From Methylicorpusculum oleiharenae (GTDB taxonomy: Bacteria > Pseudomonadota > Gammaproteobacteria > Methylococcales > Methylomonadaceae): a stretch of DNA of 64,000 bases. Positions within the stretch are counted from its first letter, which is position 1. The number at the start of each line of letters is the position of its first letter. Shown piece after piece: positions 56,538-63,756 of this stretch. Below the pieces are notes generated by a model. The model saw only the letters and a list, made by a program, of their open reading frames with translations, was not told the origin of the DNA and ran no database searches. The translations under genes and the position numbers were made by a program. The DNA lies in NCBI RefSeq assembly GCF_009828925.2, contig NZ_WUTY02000001.1:496001-560000 (forward strand). Direction: 5' to 3'.

Positions 56538-56960
56538 TTATTCAGATGTTTTAAAGCTATTTTTTATTCCAATAAATAATTCTTTCCAGCCACTAAAAAT
56601 GTTAGCCACTGTAAGTGGCGCTTTCAACATCAATTTGGTTTTGACAAGGCCCACACTGATTATGCCTGCCAAAGGAGGTAATACTTCGAAAAGCACTGAC
56701 AATAACATGCCGCCAATACTTTGCGAACCACCTGTTTTCCTGTCTCCAATGCTGGTCAGCTCTCTGTCATAATCCGGATTAATTTCAACACCTTTCATCC
56801 CGTCAATGATCCAGATGTTTAAATTGACAAAAAGAACTTGTACGGCCAAAAACAAAACCGAGCATGCAGCAACCCAAAACAAAACATTGTTTACCTTCGC
56901 CCTACTCGCTGATTGGAAAACCCAGAGGGCAACCAACACCATTATAATTCCACCTATCAT
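56538..56960 (-). CDS. Unrecognised membrane protein
   Basis: Protein of 140 residues from the ATG at 56960 (AAGGT upstream). Hydrophobic segments at about 3-16, 28-48 and 86-106; a soluble loop between contains DYDRELTSIGDRKTGG. No known domain. The gene upstream (minus strand) starts 26 bases before it, so they form a two-gene unit. Confidence 0.55.
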   Translation of the reverse strand: MIGGIIMVLVALWVFQSASRAKVNNVLFWVAACSVLFLAVQVLFVNLNIWIIDGMKGVEINPDYDRELTSIGDRKTGGSQSIGGMLLSVLFEVLPPLAGIISVGLVKTKLMLKAPLTVANIFSGWKELFIGIKNSFKTSE

Positions 56961-56986
56961 TGTTATACCTTCTTGAAATTTAATTA

Positions 56987-57382
56987 TTATATTTTTGTTA
57001 AAAAGAAATAAAGGTAAGTACACTTGATTATCATGTCAGAACCTTCTTTTTCAATAACCTTACATGACTCGTATTTTTCTCTTCCAGGAGTTGACTGCTT
57101 TTTAATCATCCCGGCTTCAACACTGTATTTTAAAGGTATTTCGAACGACTTAGTACGCCCGCCAGTGTCTATGGCCTTTGTTTGAAGGATGCCATCAGTT
57201 CTAAAATTCCACTGAACATTTAATAGTTTTTTTTCTCCATCCAGCTTTGCTGCTTCAGCAGTTACATTCCAGGCGCCAATAATCTCAGATTGATCTTTCA
57301 GCATAACATCTGCATTTGCGGCCAGCGCCACCGTAATTGCAGCCACGCCGTAACTTAATTTATAACATAATTTTTTAATCAT
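56987..57382 (-). CDS. Small exported protein, lipocalin-like style
   Basis: Protein of 131 residues from the ATG at 57382 (GAGG 8 bases upstream). A signal peptide ends near VALAANA. The mature part, with IIGAWNVTAEAAKLDG and LNVQWNFRTDGILQTKA, has the look of small lipocalin-like stress or inhibitor proteins (a beta-structure that starts with G-x-W), but I cannot assign a family. Probably co-transcribed with the membrane protein downstream. Confidence 0.55.
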   Translation of the reverse strand: MIKKLCYKLSYGVAAITVALAANADVMLKDQSEIIGAWNVTAEAAKLDGEKKLLNVQWNFRTDGILQTKAIDTGGRTKSFEIPLKYSVEAGMIKKQSTPGREKYESCKVIEKEGSDMIIKCTYLYFFLTKI

Positions 57383-57590
57383 CAACCAGTCCTCACCATA
57401 CTCTAGTTTACCCACGAGACTGGATTATACCACACGGTATAACGAGACCTAATTTAGTAAAGGATGATTACATTCAAACAGTAACGCCCTTATTTTTTCC
57501 TTGACTTTATTTTTGCCTGAAGTATCATAAATGGCTCATTTGCTATGCAAATAGTACTTTCAATCATTAATAATTACAGGTGGGACACTC

Positions 57591-57722
57591 ATGGGTGCGA
57601 TCTTAGATCTAACTGAAATGTTAAAAGAGCCAGCTGGCATGGTCGGCGCAATCGTTGTTATTGCTGCGGGTTACTTCCTAGTAAAATGGGTATTTGCCGA
57701 ACCTAAAGACGAAGACAAATAA
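57591..57722 (+). CDS. 43-residue single-helix membrane protein
   Basis: Short gene below usual length cut-offs. It encodes MGAILDLTEMLKEP, then a hydrophobic helix AGMVGAIVVIAAGYFLVKWVF (in two parts: AGMVGAIVVIAAGY and FLVKWVF) and an acidic tail AEPKDEDK. The ATG has an AGGTGGG ribosome site, and a very good terminator ends the unit. No family recognised. It stands alone, with an amphipathic start and charged C-terminus, like small subunits of membrane complexes. It precedes the HTTM-DCC gene by 123 bases. Confidence 0.7.
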   Translation: MGAILDLTEMLKEPAGMVGAIVVIAAGYFLVKWVFAEPKDEDK

Positions 57723-57755
57723 AAAAAGTCTTAAAACTGCTCTATATCAAAATCT

Positions 57756-57800
57756 AGGCCGTTGAATAAGATCTGATCTTATCACGGCCTTATTTTTTTT
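57756..57800 (+). terminator. Strong Rho-independent terminator
   Basis: AGGCCGT / ACGGCCT arms, an inner ATAAGATC / GATCTTAT stem, and then TATTTTTTTT. It closes the 43-residue gene. Confidence 0.88.
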
Positions 57801-57845
57801 CATCACCTTATACTTTATACTTTATACATTTGCTTCTAGCTTTCA

Positions 57846-59741
57846 ATGTATAAATATATTAGAAATCAAGTCACTCGCCTATATAATCAAAAATCCCCTG
57901 CAATTGGTATTGGCATTTACCGTTCGTTATACGGCTTTGTTACGCTACAAGAAATAATATTCCTACTTTACTTTGATCACTTAATATTTGACCCTATACC
58001 GTATATAGACGTCGAATATCCAATGATTCCTTTCTTTCTTTGTCTTTGGGCAATATCTTCTTTTTTTATCTTCATTGGCTATCAATGCCAAATCTCAATC
58101 ATAGTAAACTATATATTCTGGATTATTTTTGTCCAATTTACGCCTATGCAGCGCGACTTTGATGGTGGATTCGACGCGTTTATGATTTGTGCTGGTTTTT
58201 TTCTTATGTTTTTACCTACTGACAAAGCCTTCAGTATTGATCAACTAAGATCTAAATTAACCCATCCTTTTTTTCATCTGCACAAAAGCGCCATTAATGA
58301 GATTCCTGCGCTTTGTTATTATGTTCCCATTCTTTTTTGCCTTGGCTTTCTTTATTTTGACTCTGCCATTCACAAGCTTTTTGCCGAACATTGGAGAAAC
58401 GGCCTGGGCGCGTGGCTACCCTCAACACAACCTTATTACATCTCTGCCATTGATTTCTCCTGGCTTTTAAATCAGGAATATTTGCAGAAATTTATCGGTT
58501 ATTTAATTTTTGCCTTTCAATTCTCATTTGTCTTTTTATTTTTTAATCGTTATTTACAACCCATTTATTTATTCATTGGCATGGGTTTACATGCTGGTAT
58601 CGCTTTATCTTTAAATATCTATCCCTTTGGGATAGGCATGTTAATTTTTTATACTCTAATGATTCCATTTTCTTGGTGGAATTATCTTAGATTACGCATC
58701 GAATCCAACACACCCAAGTTGACTGTTTTTTATGACAAAAACTGCCCTCTTTGCAATAGGACTGTATTCATACTAAAACATTTTGATATCTTTAATAATT
58801 TATCTTTTTTAAATGCTCAAGATCATGCTCATAATCATCATCAATTATCAGATATACCCATTGACACTTTGCTAACTGATCTTTATGCATTTGACAGTAA
58901 TAATGTATATAAAGGCCTTGATACTTATATCAATATCTTATTTAAAATGCAGTATTTATCACCAATTGGCCTTATACTCAAAACCCCGGGTATTTATCAT
59001 TTTGCTAAAGTCAAATACCGCAATATTGCCGACAATCGCCTACGTAATACTTGTGACATAGAATGCCACATACCAAAACTGATTAATACTTTCAGTTTTT
59101 ACAGCTCTATTTTTGAAGCTCCCGATCCATTAACTCAAAAAAATAAACTTTCAAAATTAACCAAAGCGCTAATTTTAATAGCAATCCTTCAACTTAACAG
59201 CACTATTCATTATGGGCTTCTATACAGGCTCAATATTGATCTAAAAAACTCCGCTTTAGGCCTAACCTTCCATCAAGCCAGTAATTCACTGCTAATGCTT
59301 TCTCAGACCTTCCTTGGCATAATTCCGCACGCTCTTTATCTCCATGATCACTTTGCCGGATACAGTCAGATAATTGCGATCACCTATCTTGACAATAACG
59401 GCAAAGAACAATGGCTGCCCTTCATCAATCAAGAGGGCCGCATCTTAGCTCCTCACTGGGGCAGGGTTCACTCGATGTGGGCAAATATCGCTGTCACTCC
59501 CCATATCGACCATAAACGGTTAAACAAATTTATCATGAAAGTTACTGCTTATTGGGCTCCGAAATTAGGCTTATCTCTGGCAGACTGTACTTTTTACATT
59601 AAAACAAAACCAAACATATCGCCCAACCAGTGGATTTATGACCTCCGAAGAATTAATGCTTCTAATGAATGGTCAACCTCTGGAATTGCCACCTGGAAGG
59701 ACTTTACCTATTCTTCTAAACTTGACTTGAGCAATGACTAG
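57846..59741 (+). CDS. HTTM (gamma-carboxylase-like) and DCC-thioredoxin fusion membrane protein
   Basis: Protein of 631 residues. The first 290 form a multi-helix membrane domain of the HTTM (vitamin K-dependent gamma-carboxylase-like) type, with FTPMQRDFDGGFDAFMI and HKLFAEHWRNGLGAWLP. Then a DCC/DUF393 thiol-oxidoreductase-like domain starts LTVFYDKNCPLCNRTVFILK, with the motif CPLC at about 301-304. The last 230 residues have one more membrane segment and an unrecognised soluble part. DCC proteins and HTTM proteins are often adjacent; here they are fused. The gene is AT-rich compared with most of the window. Function is unknown. Confidence 0.78.
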   Translation: MYKYIRNQVTRLYNQKSPAIGIGIYRSLYGFVTLQEIIFLLYFDHLIFDPIPYIDVEYPMIPFFLCLWAISSFFIFIGYQCQISIIVNYIFWIIFVQFTPMQRDFDGGFDAFMICAGFFLMFLPTDKAFSIDQLRSKLTHPFFHLHKSAINEIPALCYYVPILFCLGFLYFDSAIHKLFAEHWRNGLGAWLPSTQPYYISAIDFSWLLNQEYLQKFIGYLIFAFQFSFVFLFFNRYLQPIYLFIGMGLHAGIALSLNIYPFGIGMLIFYTLMIPFSWWNYLRLRIESNTPKLTVFYDKNCPLCNRTVFILKHFDIFNNLSFLNAQDHAHNHHQLSDIPIDTLLTDLYAFDSNNVYKGLDTYINILFKMQYLSPIGLILKTPGIYHFAKVKYRNIADNRLRNTCDIECHIPKLINTFSFYSSIFEAPDPLTQKNKLSKLTKALILIAILQLNSTIHYGLLYRLNIDLKNSALGLTFHQASNSLLMLSQTFLGIIPHALYLHDHFAGYSQIIAITYLDNNGKEQWLPFINQEGRILAPHWGRVHSMWANIAVTPHIDHKRLNKFIMKVTAYWAPKLGLSLADCTFYIKTKPNISPNQWIYDLRRINASNEWSTSGIATWKDFTYSSKLDLSND

Positions 59742-59862
59742 TCGCTTTTTTTATTTAAAATACAAGTTGCATAGCTTTTTTTCCCGTGATATAAAATAGC
59801 TGTGCTATATGATTAGTACTTTATATAAATAAAATAATTCTATAGAAATTTTGGAGGATAGT

Positions 59863-59979
59863 ATGAAAAAAGTTATATCTCTTTTAGCAATGGCATTAAT
59901 GATTGTTGGTTTGTCTGGCTGCTTAGACGATCCTGATTCATCAAAACAAAAAGTAGAACAATCTACTATTAGCCTATAA
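59863..59979 (+). CDS. Small lipoprotein (38 residues)
   Basis: MKKVISLLAMALMIVGLSGC is a complete lipoprotein signal with cysteine 20; the mature peptide is only 19 residues, Ser/Gln/Asp rich. The start has TTGGAGG 6 bases upstream and a strong terminator follows 8 bases after the stop. Too short for standard gene finders. Such entericidin-like peptides are known, but I cannot assign a family. Confidence 0.7.
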   Translation: MKKVISLLAMALMIVGLSGCLDDPDSSKQKVEQSTISL

Positions 59980-59986
59980 TATATTT

Positions 59987-60023
59987 AAAACCCAACTTGT
60001 TATCTAGCAAGTTGGGTTTTTTA
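59987..60023 (+). terminator. Rho-independent terminator after the small lipoprotein
   Basis: AAAACCCAACTTG / CAAGTTGGGTTTT, 13-base perfect arms, loop of 8, T-rich end. Confidence 0.88.
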
Positions 60024-60726: not shown

Positions 60727-60763
60727 AAAAAAAACCCCTGGTTAAATAATTAACCAGGGGTTT
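60727..60763 (-). terminator. Terminator of the pmoCAB operon
   Basis: On the minus strand: AAACCCCTGGTTAA / TTAACCAGGGG-type arms of 13 bases followed by eight T. Begins 41 bases after the pmoB stop. Confidence 0.9.
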
Positions 60764-60804: not shown

Positions 60805-62049
60805 TTAAATAAATGTTGGGATTAATGGAGCGTCAACAGTTACTAACTGACGTGTTCCATCTTCATTGAAGAAGAACAACAATCCAGCAAAACGGCTATC
60901 TGGATCGTAAATCAAGTCAGCTAAACGGTAAACTTCCCATGCAGCATCAGATGCAGTAACTTCAACAGTTCTGGTTTCACCTGGAGCTAATGGGCTGTTA
61001 TCGCTAACAGTCAAGCCTTCTTCAGCCAACAAATCATCTGGATAACCAGTTTCATCTTCAAGAACCGCAGGGTCTAAGAATCTAACACCAGCAGTGTTGA
61101 ACTCACCTAAACGAACTGCGTCATCACCGTTGTTGGTGATTTCCAAAGTCATTTGCATTGAACGACCTGGAACACGGTAAGTAGCATCAACAACTTTAAC
61201 AGCAACAGTTGATTGTGGAACTTCCATTGACTTAATACCGCGCAACAAACCTGCTTGTAAAGGAGTTGTTACAGGATACTGTTCGTTTGTAGAACCCATT
61301 GAGAATGCAACCAAACCGATTGTACCAGCGGCAAATGCCATTGCTACTTTTTTATCAGTTGCTGAGATCAATGAATCTGCTTTACCAGCTTCTACAGCGA
61401 TGTGACGTGGAACGAAAATTGGTTTACGTACCCAATATACAACCCAAGCTAAACCTAAGGCATACCAGAAAGCGTGCCAGAAGTAGATATTGCTCAGATT
61501 ATAAGTTTCCAGATCAATAGTTTCGCCAGTCAAAGTAGTGATTGGATTTTTGAAATCACTCATTTTACCAGAGATTGTTACCCATTTACCTGGACCAATG
61601 ATTGGACCACCACCTTCTACGTTTAACATTGTGTGAATGTGCCAATCGCCTGGACGACGTGCTTTCAACAATACTTTAAACTCGTAGGTTTCACCCAGTT
61701 CCAAAGAAACTGAACGAGGAACTAATTGACCACCAATCCAAGAACCTGCACGAATAAATACAGGACCAGGAATACCGATGTTCAAGAATGCGCTTTCTGG
61801 TTTATCAACAGTTTCAGGCCAACCTGTAAACACGAAGAATTTTCCAGAAATTGTCATTGTGTCGTTTACAGTGACTTCTTCTTTTGACCAGTTCAGATCG
61901 TACCAGTGAATAGTACGCATCCGCATAAATGCGGCCTGTGACTTTTCGCCGTGAGCTGAAGCAGTTGGAGTGTAAAACATCGCTGCGGTTACAGTTACCA
62001 GCAGTGCGACAAAGGATAATTTAGCTACCTTGTCTTTAATTATATTCAT
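60805..62049 (-). CDS. pmoB: Particulate methane monooxygenase subunit B
   Basis: 414 residues; periplasmic copper-bearing subunit of pMMO, which oxidises methane to methanol in intracytoplasmic membranes. A signal peptide ends at Ala32, leaving His33 as the mature N-terminus. His33, His48, His137 and His139 (GDWHIH) are at the same numbers as in Methylococcus capsulatus, so the Cu-B and N-terminal copper sites are complete. Two cupredoxin-like domains flank a pair of membrane helices (about 185-205 and 235-255). GAGGAGG precedes the ATG. Third gene of the operon, 95 bases after pmoA. Confidence 0.98.
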   Translation of the reverse strand: MNIIKDKVAKLSFVALLVTVTAAMFYTPTASAHGEKSQAAFMRMRTIHWYDLNWSKEEVTVNDTMTISGKFFVFTGWPETVDKPESAFLNIGIPGPVFIRAGSWIGGQLVPRSVSLELGETYEFKVLLKARRPGDWHIHTMLNVEGGGPIIGPGKWVTISGKMSDFKNPITTLTGETIDLETYNLSNIYFWHAFWYALGLAWVVYWVRKPIFVPRHIAVEAGKADSLISATDKKVAMAFAAGTIGLVAFSMGSTNEQYPVTTPLQAGLLRGIKSMEVPQSTVAVKVVDATYRVPGRSMQMTLEITNNGDDAVRLGEFNTAGVRFLDPAVLEDETGYPDDLLAEEGLTVSDNSPLAPGETRTVEVTASDAAWEVYRLADLIYDPDSRFAGLLFFFNEDGTRQLVTVDAPLIPTFI

Positions 62050-62144
62050 ATATCCTCCTCTATAATAGAGAATCTATAGTTTTTATGAGTATCAAGTATA
62101 TTAATTACTTGTTCTTATGGATTTATCTAAAACAACTTCTGCAA

Positions 62145-62888
62145 TCAAGAAGATTGTACGAAGTCAGTTTTTCCAAACCATTTGCCGAAGAAGTGCCACA
62201 AGAAGTAAATCAAGATGCTCACGAAACCAGAGAAGAACGCAGATACTGGAGCAACGTCTTTACCGAATGTTCTTAAAGTACCTTTTTCAACCATTCTGAT
62301 ATATTCAGGAGTACCAGTTCTAACGTAGTGGTAACCTTGTAAGTCAGCCAGTGTCATCATCATACCGTTGTATTCAACAGGAACGTGTAATGGTGCAATT
62401 ATCGGCCAGTTGCCTGGGTAGAATAATAAACCATAAGCCAAACCGCCTAATACTGCAGTCAACGTCATGCTGTTAGATAACAACAACACGATATCAAGTA
62501 CGATAGCACCAGGCATTAAGTTTGAAGGGAACACGAAGTTTACTGGGAAATAAGTCCATCCCCAGAAGTTGAAGTATCTGTTGATCCACTCACCTAACAA
62601 TAAGCCAAGTATGCAGAAAACAGCACCGAATGGAAGACGATATCTCCACCATAATATAGCTTGAACAGCAGCTGGGAATGTAATTGAAACGATAGGAGCT
62701 ACAGTTACCCACAGACGTCTATCTTTCCAATCGGTCCAGAAATCCCAATCTCCACCAGTCAACATATAGTGAATATGATAACCACCTAAAATTACAAAGA
62801 ATAATGTGAAACAAATTAGCCAATCGAACGTGCGTGATGCTTTTACAGCTTCAGCGCGTGAACGTACAGCTGATTGAGATGCGCTCAT
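62145..62888 (-). CDS. pmoA: Particulate methane monooxygenase subunit A
   Basis: 247-residue membrane subunit, the usual phylogenetic marker for methanotrophs. It contains the well-known blocks GDWDFWTDWKDRRLW, LLLGEWINRYFNFWGWTYFP, NWPIIAPLHVPVEYNG and PEYIRMVEKGTLRTFGK, all of the true PmoA rather than AmoA type. AGGAGGT lies 7 bases before the ATG. The sequence is of type Ia methanotroph style. Confidence 0.98.
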   Translation of the reverse strand: MSASQSAVRSRAEAVKASRTFDWLICFTLFFVILGGYHIHYMLTGGDWDFWTDWKDRRLWVTVAPIVSITFPAAVQAILWWRYRLPFGAVFCILGLLLGEWINRYFNFWGWTYFPVNFVFPSNLMPGAIVLDIVLLLSNSMTLTAVLGGLAYGLLFYPGNWPIIAPLHVPVEYNGMMMTLADLQGYHYVRTGTPEYIRMVEKGTLRTFGKDVAPVSAFFSGFVSILIYFLWHFFGKWFGKTDFVQSS

Positions 62889-62943
62889 TAGCTTACCTCC
62901 TAAAGGATTTAAATTATATTTTTTATTTTATCTCTTAATCTGA

Positions 62944-62971
62944 GCCGCTTTGTATGTTATTACAAAGCGGC
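62944..62971 (-). promoter_or_regulatory. Hairpin in the pmoC-pmoA spacer
   Basis: Perfect 11-base arms, GCCGCTTTGTA / TACAAAGCGGC, with a 6-base loop, 33 bases after the pmoC stop. No T run follows directly, so it is more likely an mRNA processing or stabilising element than a full terminator; partial attenuation is possible. Confidence 0.7.
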
Positions 62972-63003
62972 CAGGAGATAGTTTTACTTTCTTTGACCGG
63001 TTA

Positions 63004-63756
63004 TTATGCCAAGTCTTTTTTCAGAAGCTTTGCAATTGATGCAATTTCTGTATTTACCACACCTAATACACCAAGAGCAGCCCATCCGAAGAATACGAAG
63101 CCGTAGTGTAATGGAGCAACAAACAACTCTTCCATAAACCAGAAAGTGTGACCCCACTCATTCAGACCTACGTTTGGTAAGATCATGAATGGACCAACGA
63201 TAGCTACCATATATTGCATATGGAGACCTTGTTGGTAAGTAGGAAGTCTAGTTTTGGCATATAAGAAGCATGCGCCACCAGTGATGATGTAGATTGGGTA
63301 GCTCAAATAGAACTCGATAATATGACTTGGTGTGAAGTCAGTATCGCGAACGATTGTTTGATGCCATGTTCCATCTTGCTCAGTGAAGTAGCTAGCGCCG
63401 AAATAAATGGCGATACCGTACATAACTAACCAAGTCCAGTGTGTGAAATGTCTTCTTAACTCTTCTCTTGGAGTAATTGACATTACTTTCCGATCACGAG
63501 TTTTCCAGATGTAACCCCACAGGATAGATGCGGTCATTACTTCCAAAACCATTTCGATATAAAGAAAGTTCATCCAATATGTTTCGAACTCTGGAGCAAA
63601 TGAGTCTAAACCAGCTGACCAGCCGTAAACTCCTTCATACCAGCGAACCCAAGCGTAAAACACACAGTAAAGTGCAGCGCCTGCAAACATATTCTTTTTA
63701 TTTAAAAGCGGTGCTTCCGCAGCATCAGCCTTAACTGACTCAGTTGTAGCAGCCAT
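63004..63756 (-). CDS. pmoC: Particulate methane monooxygenase subunit C
   Basis: 250-residue membrane subunit. Metal ligands are complete: Asp128, His132 and His145 (equal to Asp156, His160, His173 of M. capsulatus, offset 28) for the Cu-C site, and Asn199, His203 and His217 (Asn227, His231, His245) for the Cu-D site. Six membrane helices follow a soluble N-terminus. AGGAGGT lies at the ideal distance from the ATG. First gene of the operon. Confidence 0.98.
   Translation of the reverse strand: MAATTESVKADAAEAPLLNKKNMFAGAALYCVFYAWVRWYEGVYGWSAGLDSFAPEFETYWMNFLYIEMVLEVMTASILWGYIWKTRDRKVMSITPREELRRHFTHWTWLVMYGIAIYFGASYFTEQDGTWHQTIVRDTDFTPSHIIEFYLSYPIYIITGGACFLYAKTRLPTYQQGLHMQYMVAIVGPFMILPNVGLNEWGHTFWFMEELFVAPLHYGFVFFGWAALGVLGVVNTEIASIAKLLKKDLA

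Follow-up and report, generated by a model that had tools for sequence, protein, structure and literature searches.

In the window analyzed here, a 64,000-nucleotide stretch of Methylicorpusculum oleiharenae DNA, we have characterized a group of three genes encoding the membrane peptide PEP, the membrane protein HTTM-DCC and the lipoprotein LIP (Table 1). The set, present in most of the members sampled from a key metabolic guild, pairs an enzyme predicted to have the GGCX fold with two mini-proteins below the usual gene-finder size, in bacteria running on membrane quinols and copper. We tentatively propose, as a distinctly possible reading that draws on the modeled fold and on analogy, that the three form one functional system, in which HTTM-DCC, as a quinol-linked GGCX-like enzyme, would act on LIP, PEP or both, modifying or maturing them for the envelope of methanotrophs. 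The proposal builds on conservation, selection on the mini-genes, their own promoters and terminators, coinheritance with re-pairing and the GGCX fold, all computed here. No description of the group was found in the open-access literature, where HTTM combined with methanotroph matched nothing (a weak test, covering open-licence text and the top results of long lists), and the set is therefore worth a look.

Table 1. Positions of the gene group, its signals and its neighbors in the window
Feature	Position	Strand	Basis
PEP promoter, TTGACT-N16-TATCAT	57501..57528	+	promoter scan and alignment of 24 loci
PEP, single-pass membrane peptide, 43 aa	57591..57722	+	homologues, pN/pS
Intrinsic terminator 3' of PEP, 35-nt hairpin and T-run	57756..57799	+	sequence; related loci
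HTTM-DCC, GGCX-like membrane protein, 631 aa	57846..59741	+	profile matches, predicted fold
LIP promoter, TTGCAT-N17-TATAAA, TGA ahead of -10	59767..59795	+	alignment of 24 loci
Inverted repeat GTGCTA..TAGTAC, presumed 5' UTR of LIP	59802..59819	+	alignment of 24 loci
LIP, predicted lipoprotein, 38 aa from ATG, lipobox LSGC	59863..59979	+	homologues, pN/pS, gene order
Intrinsic terminator 3' of LIP	59989..60023	+	sequence; related loci
c131, exported lipocalin-like protein	56990..57382	-	neighbor kept in 56/80 named loci (best 80 of 231)
c142, small membrane protein	56541..56966	-	neighbor kept in 65/80 named loci (best 80 of 231)
pmoBAC operon (pMMO), convergent with LIP	60805..63756	-	

The group is real, and the coordinates and sizes given for its genes in the original prediction are borne out, as is its placement 0.8 kb from the pMMO operon (826 nt from the LIP stop to the pmoB stop). 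The description of all three genes as AT-rich fits HTTM-DCC (36% GC) and LIP (32%) but not PEP, which at 43% resembles pmoCAB (41 to 42%) and the window (45%). The mechanical open reading frame of LIP begins at a TTG, 12 nt before the ATG.

Both mini-genes are under protein-level selection and are not chance open reading frames, since their median pN/pS values are 0.25 (PEP, 74 sequences) and 0.24 (LIP, 66), against 0.79 to 1.48 when the same DNA is read in other frames or on the opposite strand. PEP is mostly single-copy, and its residues M1, G2, I4, L5, P14, G16, K32 and W33 are identical in 48/48 distinct sequences. LIP is predicted to be a bacterial lipoprotein, with a signal peptide, lipobox Cys20 and a mature form of 19 residues; C20, D22 and D25 occur in all 51 distinct sequences of family f1, and the lipobox cysteine is found in every f2, f3, f4 and f6 sequence inspected. 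Apart from this cysteine, no residue is common to all families, and no modification site stands out. D25 (P-D-G) was considered as an invariant modification site and rejected; it is present in the f1, f2 and f4 sequences inspected and missing in f3 and in part of f6.

Each mini-gene has its own conserved promoter and mostly its own terminator, and there is almost no terminator after HTTM-DCC. Upstream of PEP, a promoter scoring at least 10 was found in 86% of 73 loci, versus 7.5% of mononucleotide shuffles, with the consensus CTTGACxTTAA..CCTAAAGTATCAT in 24 aligned loci. The LIP promoter is visible in the alignment of 24 loci; it was missed by the scan (4% of loci versus 6% of shuffles) because the filter required a T at the last -10 position. 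An inverted repeat similar to that 5' of LIP also stands 5' of PEP in the same alignment. With a terminator defined as a hairpin of -8 kcal/mol or lower plus a T-run within 130 nt 3' of the gene, one follows PEP in 55/74 and LIP in 57/65 related loci, and HTTM-DCC in 1/80 (best 80 of 231). The strong terminators that had been ascribed to each small gene are thus kept in relatives; in the window, they are absent from the list of a simple scan, though hairpins and T-runs stand in the sequence.

Distribution was counted on samples of 151 genomes of the family, 301 + 76 of the order and 369 of the class; we take f1 to be Methylomonadaceae, from matching named contigs and GTDB usage, and f4 is, at a guess, Methylococcaceae-like. 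PEP was found in 144 of the 151 family genomes (E<1e-7) and in 261 of the 301 order genomes, and HTTM-DCC, in some cases as fragments, in 146 of the 151. The original prediction had staked itself on homologues of the short genes in relatives, and these are present in most related genomes. A PEP match in G127 (E 0.39), which would make 145/151, is not real, with no match in the order-wide PEP search; HTTM-DCC in this genome starts at a contig end. Among the 129 family genomes with pmoA, five are without PEP (G086, G104, G111, G127 and G145), some of them fragmented assemblies; G086 and G145, both 99% complete, are without PEP, HTTM-DCC and a convincing LIP. A profile built from f1 sequences only did not find PEP in f3 and f5 genomes, though HTTM-DCC is present there, and LIP was not found in f5 genomes. 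As for methanotrophic symbionts, one from a sponge (L337) keeps all three genes, and another (L342, from the 2.9-Mb genome G016) has HTTM-DCC with LIP, its PEP gene lying at a different place in that genome.

As for wider spread, the original prediction had named an HTTM-DCC gene equally common in nonmethanotrophs, with no link to pmo, as an outcome that would count against it; full-length HTTM-DCC occurs in 4/369 gammaproteobacterial genomes, and all four carry a pMMO/AMO-type gene. The probability of this by chance is ~4e-7, or 2e-6 if a fragment in G463 is taken as a fifth hit. Seven further carriers of a pMMO/AMO-type gene among the 369 are without full-length HTTM-DCC. The HTTM-DCC gene of G473 may be a transfer or a binning error, because it groups inside f4 and because G328, a member of the same family with a PmoA 70% identical to that of G473, is without HTTM-DCC.

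When the predicted model of HTTM-DCC was compared with known structures (Foldseek, VIA), the top 16 matches were all GGCX (Z 16.2 to 24.4; PDB 9wfc, 9bur, 9l6q and others), and the next unrelated chain reached 7.8. The best superposition (Z 24.4, 325 residues, 3.9 Å) spans the core of helices and portions of the C-terminal region, with model residues 1..593 aligned to GGCX chain residues 44..475. By this model, HTTM-DCC has the fold of human GGCX, the vitamin K-dependent carboxylase, at 12 to 18% identity and with a DCC thiol domain (~294-402), which GGCX does not carry, inserted before the last helices and the C-terminal domain. The protein had been described as a gamma-carboxylase-like membrane domain joined to a DCC thiol domain (CPLC). 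The DCC part stands firmly (PF04134, 66 bits versus a cutoff of 27.8; E<=0.1 in 45/45 family members), while the HTTM assignment of the membrane part draws on relatives and the fold: Pfam HTTM (PF05090) gives no match to the window protein at E<=1, although 13 of the 45 are matched at E<=0.1, with 2e-9 as the best value. The CPLC motif, present in the window protein, is lost in L062, L063, L194 and L195 (genus g21 and family f2, with two genomes each). No NCBIfam family matched PEP or HTTM-DCC, and those matching LIP stayed far below cutoff; PDB searches with PEP and with PEP, LIP and HTTM-DCC profiles gave nothing useful.

Across 21 diverse HTTM-DCC sequences there is no variation at H176, K177, W183, H249, P494-H495 and D501-H502-F503. 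K177 can be paired with K218, the base of GGCX, from its chain offset and from the tryptophan that follows, W183 standing six residues after K177, one more than the five between K218 and W223 in GGCX (numbering of PMC12589487). This residue-level analogy is weak because model positions 103-106 and 496-502, beside conserved motifs, have a pLDDT below 50. The Glu-binding pocket of GGCX is N159/H160, and its presumed matching place in HTTM-DCC is set by an alignment with the Virgibacillus protein discussed below. There, the pocket seems to be replaced by an invariant GGFD (G107 G108 F109 D110), which makes Glu carboxylation itself doubtful. The candidate substrates also differ from those of GGCX, being 19 to 43 residues long and not Glu-rich.

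The original suggestion of a role in membrane protein modification thus gains structural support from a predicted fold that is that of gamma-glutamyl carboxylase, whereas the quinol chemistry, the identity of the substrate, the place of action and any pMMO role of the system are what we infer. HTTM-DCC would be an inner-membrane enzyme that uses membrane quinol, probably ubiquinol, with Lys177 as the base by analogy with GGCX, and would power a step, on the periplasmic face of the membrane, that modifies or matures its substrate. Likely targets would be LIP, a lipopeptide, and/or PEP, a peptide with one helix; both are very short and separately transcribed, and the finished products could serve the methane-oxidizing membrane in pMMO assembly, pMMO arrays or intracytoplasmic membranes.

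The link to pMMO suggested by the original prediction finds partial support in close pmo genes at some loci, although loci with pmoCAB as a close neighbor are in the minority. Gene neighborhoods were read at 80 named loci, the best 80 of 231 relatives in a scan of contigs, whose titles are those of Methylococcales genera or relatives, with one methane-oxidizing endosymbiont and four given merely as Gammaproteobacteria or proteobacterium. Within a 7-kb flank, beyond which pmo was not counted, pmoB lies 0.6 to 3.2 kb beyond LIP in 7 of these best 80; pmo is also close in four further loci, L080, L081, L085 and L194, and is convergent with LIP in all 11 close-linked loci read. Across 12 genera represented by near-complete genomes, the distance between PEP and pmoA is at most 10 kb in 3 and at most 100 kb in 5; the binomial tails of 1e-4 to 7e-6 overstate this linkage, as the linked genera may be one clade, with one draw per genus, and they rest on the best-scoring pmoA alone and on several approximate contig sizes. 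That the set always stands beside pmo is ruled out by these same counts.

Most named relatives keep the gene order: among the best 80 of 231 loci, 74 have PEP upstream of the HTTM-DCC gene and 71 have LIP on its downstream side. Since the conserved synteny includes metH (62/80 of these loci), together with DUF2970 (64/80), c142 and c131, the neighborhood alone is weak evidence, and the pattern might instead be frozen synteny around metH, with HTTM-DCC acting on quinone, lipid or cytochrome maturation unrelated to PEP and LIP. The lipocalin-like c131 hints at a part in handling lipids or quinones, PEP and HTTM-DCC stand apart in f4 and f6, and in the stretches read f6 keeps none of the three pairs. 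On the other hand, in f4 the starts of LIP and PEP are 0.4 to 1.3 kb apart in 18/18 loci, with no HTTM-DCC in the 11- to 12-kb stretches read and metH not among the shared neighbors, and in G016, G027 and G028 HTTM-DCC is away from PEP and still with LIP. All three pairings therefore occur somewhere, and because the genes re-pair separately, frozen synteny is hard to uphold; we consider it unlikely. In the stretches read from f6, f2 and f3, neither PEP nor HTTM-DCC lies beside LIP. The c131 neighbor is also found in f2.

A reading that is somewhat less improbable, but in our view still rather unlikely, has PEP and LIP serve a membrane complex (pMMO, its contact with methanol dehydrogenase or a respiratory complex) as small supernumerary subunits or as factors in its assembly, with HTTM-DCC as a nonmodifying partner or chaperone. 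PEP is subunit-like in its one helix, high conservation and own promoter and terminator, and PMC8098663 describes an unidentified helix in the pMMO structure of Methylocystis (Rockwell). That helix, however, comes from an alphaproteobacterium, and neither PEP nor LIP has a convincing counterpart among PDB chains of known sequence (best E for PEP, 0.5 and 0.7). A PF02461 enzyme does not in itself require the set, as 14 of the 20 genomes of families f7 and f8 carry a PF02461 gene, with no full-length HTTM-DCC in any of the 20 and none of them among the 261 PEP matches in the 301 order genomes. HTTM-DCC could also mature a secreted killing peptide, in the manner of the SDP system of Bacillus, in which SdpB is an HTTM protein, and an HTTM-DCC with related motifs adjoins DUF5819 in Virgibacillus. 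Toxins usually vary, and come and go, whereas PEP, mostly single-copy, and LIP occur almost throughout the family, are strongly conserved and persist in symbionts, and none of six window proteins scanned matched DUF5819, so that we regard toxin maturation as very improbable.

The modification system that we favor would have its widest consequences if a quinol-driven peptide modification by a GGCX-fold enzyme made the 19-residue lipopeptide and/or the 43-residue peptide required parts of the pMMO membrane, whether of the array, the intracytoplasmic membrane or as a small subunit. Recombinant pMMO is largely inactive, and this extended version, which we judge improbable as a whole, could, if true, help explain the difficulty of making active pMMO in other hosts. 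The biogenesis of intracytoplasmic membranes is stated to be unknown in PMC9445010. In strains that are tractable, Methylotuvimicrobium buryatense among them, the three genes are concrete targets through which questions of membrane biogenesis and pMMO become testable.

Partial likenesses exist elsewhere. LptM (YifL), the chaperone of the LPS translocon, is likewise a very small lipoprotein, but its match to LIP is weak (E 0.06 to 0.35) and confined to residues 1-20, the signal peptide and lipobox. The original view, that no role is known for HTTM combined with DCC, is nearly right, although the combination is not unique: a Virgibacillus plasmid protein (WP_121606025.1; hhalign E 5e-23) shares the HTTM motifs DGG and S-x-x-H-K...W-x-N-G and the DCC domain, but ends after DCC without the C-terminal domain and has an adjoining DUF5819 gene, of which there is no counterpart among the six window proteins scanned. 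Conversely, the Hymenobacter volaticus protein WP_245126651.1 (hhalign E 1e-60, 30% identity) has the HTTM core and the C-terminal domain without DCC; the one small adjoining CDS read is unlike PEP and LIP, the remaining neighborhood being known by annotation only.

The original prediction placed three plus-strand genes near the pMMO operon, encoding a 43-residue membrane peptide (PEP), a membrane protein resembling gamma-carboxylase (GGCX, the vitamin K-dependent enzyme) with a DCC thiol domain (HTTM-DCC; its product has 631 residues), and a 38-residue lipoprotein (LIP), and their coordinates held when checked on the window sequence (positions 496001-560000 of contig 1; genome of 5.85 Mb). 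Both short genes are genuine and have homologues in relatives: PEP was detected at E<1e-7 in 144 of 151 genomes of the family (a tally of 145 takes in a match of E 0.39 in G127), and HTTM-DCC, fragments included, in 146 of 151. Among the named loci (the best 80 of 231 relatives), median pN/pS was 0.25 for PEP (74 sequences) and 0.24 for LIP (66 sequences), compared with 0.79-1.48 when the DNA was read in another frame or on the opposite strand. The gene order is likewise kept in most of these 80 loci: PEP precedes HTTM-DCC in 74, separated from it by 125-244 nt, and LIP follows HTTM-DCC in 71, after 112-2449 nt; two of the six loci without PEP (L277 and L296) have less than 260 nt of upstream sequence, and four of the nine without LIP have less than 400 nt downstream. 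The closest of the 80 loci belong to a Methylicorpusculum MAG (L264) and a Methylomicrobium MAG (L265).

Genes of the locus and its neighbourhood (window positions)
Feature	Position	Strand	Remarks
c142	56541-56966	-	small membrane protein; kept in 65 of the best 80 of 231 loci
c131	56990-57382	-	exported; eight-stranded lipocalin-like barrel predicted
PEP	57591-57722	+
HTTM-DCC	57846-59741	+
LIP	59863-59979	+
pmoBAC	60805-63756	-	after LIP, convergent with it

Within the same 80 loci, the conserved neighbours include metH (62 loci), DUF2970 (64) and c131 (56) (c131 also in family f2), and metH synteny shows that a neighbourhood alone can persist without function. Since a lipocalin-like barrel is predicted for c131 (Z 12.5 to 4qrl), the model hints at a lipid or quinone ligand; c142 matched no Pfam or NCBIfam family above cut-off. 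Two or three tandem, diverged LIP copies follow HTTM-DCC in L087, L092, L099 and L337, some with tails that differ past the conserved start.

Judging from sequence signals, each mini-gene also looks like its own transcription unit. A TTGACA-N15-19-TATAAT match scoring at least 10 lies upstream of PEP in 86% of 73 loci, versus 7.5% of mononucleotide shuffles; the corresponding values are 8% of 79 versus 2.8% for HTTM-DCC and 4% of 71 versus 5.9% for LIP, to which the scan filter is unsuited. In alignments of 24 upstream regions each, nearly all carry TTGACx..TATCAT ahead of PEP and TTGCAT..TGATATAAA ahead of LIP, both putative promoters having an inverted repeat and then a good ribosome site. 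That each small gene is closed by its own terminator stood for most of the best 80 of 231 loci, namely, 55/74 after PEP and 57/65 after LIP. Terminators are rare 3' of HTTM-DCC (1/80), and therefore its transcripts can extend into LIP. The layout fits one presumably low-dose enzyme with two presumably high-dose small products.

Among close structural matches, the AlphaFold2 model of HTTM-DCC, built from 45 sequences (mean pLDDT 82, pTM 0.83; below 50 at 50-56, 103-106, 144-148, 496-502, and 546-552), resembles the GGCX fold only, with 16 GGCX rows at Z 16.2-24.4, the next match at 7.8 and no other close one; Foldseek of the model against GGCX gave E ~4e-6. The DCC domain (about 294-402) is inserted ahead of the last helices and the C-terminal domain. 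A partial homologue from Hymenobacter (31% identity) shares the core and C-terminal domain but lacks DCC. That of Virgibacillus plasmids (25%), with a DUF5819 neighbour, has both HTTM and DCC and is missing the C-terminal domain. Invariant in 21 diverse HTTM-DCC sequences are H176, K177, W183 and H249, together with the motifs GGFD (107-110), P494-H495 and D501-H502-F503. In GGCX, according to PMC12589487, K218 is the base, K217, D220, D222 and W223 are nearby, and N159 and H160 lie in the Glu pocket. H176-K177-x5-W183 is a close candidate counterpart of GGCX K217/K218-W223; it is one residue longer, and its offset along the chain fits. GGFD seems to replace N159/H160, a tentative placement based on the motif and on the Virgibacillus alignment; because GGFD seems to occupy the Glu-pocket place, the enzyme may catalyse something other than the carboxylation of Glu. 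The CPLC motif is lost in two sequences of genus g21 and two of f2, and therefore some members can do without thiol chemistry by DCC. In L062 (5302-7146) and L194 (4408-6237), DCC lacks CPLC, and HTTM and the C-terminal domain are still conserved.

Beyond the fold, we infer the following steps: (i) by analogy with GGCX, HTTM-DCC would hold a quinol in the membrane, with K177 as the base; (ii) it would act on a short peptide presented on the periplasmic side; (iii) DCC, where intact, would donate or take away electrons; (iv) the substrates would be LIP, which after lipidation at Cys20 would become a 19-residue lipopeptide, PEP, or both; and (v) these products may be used in pMMO membranes, as co-inheritance and old linkage suggest. 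In PEP, one helix bears a conserved K-W at one of its ends, and the tail is acidic; no clear modification site emerged from the sequences compared across families.

Across families (f1, the window's own, probably Methylomonadaceae), HTTM-DCC was detected in f1-f6, PEP in f1, f2, f4 and f6 (not in f3 or f5 by an f1-based profile search), and LIP-like genes at E<1e-3 in f1, f2, f3, f4 and f6; no LIP-like gene was found in the f5 genome, in seven f7/f8 genomes tested (best E 0.014), or in G178 and G164. The 20 genomes of f7 and f8 gave short DCC-type matches only, and 14 carry a PF02461 gene. Two symbionts, one of a sponge (L337) and one of Gigantopelta (L342/G016), retain all three genes. HTTM-DCC lies apart from PEP and still adjoins LIP in G016, G027 and G028. 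In f4 (possibly Methylococcaceae-like), PEP and LIP keep a start-to-start spacing of 0.4-1.3 kb on the same strand in 18/18 loci, HTTM-DCC being absent from the stretches read around them. In f2, c131, c142, PEP and HTTM-DCC are codirectional in L194, with metH adjoining and pmoB convergent, and L195 is arranged alike, without pmo on the stretch read; in the f2 genomes searched, the LIP-like gene was on another contig or not found. None of the three gene pairs is kept in the f6 stretches read.

HTTM-DCC was not equally common away from methane oxidation. AMO/pMMO-type genes occur in 11 of 369 gammaproteobacterial genomes and full-length HTTM-DCC in 4, all among those 11 (chance ~4e-7, or 2e-6 counting G463, where a contig ends within the gene, leaving a fragment of 107 residues, and which has no AMO/pMMO-type gene), the four being nonindependent because three share an order. 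Seven of the 11 carriers lack HTTM-DCC, including G328, from the same family as G473. G473 does not belong to the order; its PmoA and that of the window share 69% identity, but its HTTM-DCC falls within f4 in the tree (support 87/78), which may reflect transfer or misbinning. PEP is missing from five of the 129 family genomes that carry pmoA (G086, G104, G111, G127, and G145). Two of these five, G086 and G145, both 99% complete, are without HTTM-DCC as well and lack the whole set.

The proposed proximity to pmo applies to a minority of relatives: LIP is followed by pmoB at a distance of 0.6-3.2 kb in 7 of the best 80 of 231 loci (one cut within pmoB), and pmo is also near in L080, L081, L085 and, beyond HTTM-DCC, the f2 locus L194, convergent in all 11; elsewhere it is further away. 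Among 12 genera represented by near-complete genomes, the distance is at most 10 kb in 3, at most 25 kb in 4 and at most 100 kb in 5. We read this as an ancient pmo neighbourhood lost by most genera; alternatively, the block may have been transferred between families. Directly past pmoB in the window, a 14-bp hairpin (60732-60763), terminator-like on both strands in a simple scan, could be the end point for pmoCAB transcription; an AT-rich stretch separates it from LIP.
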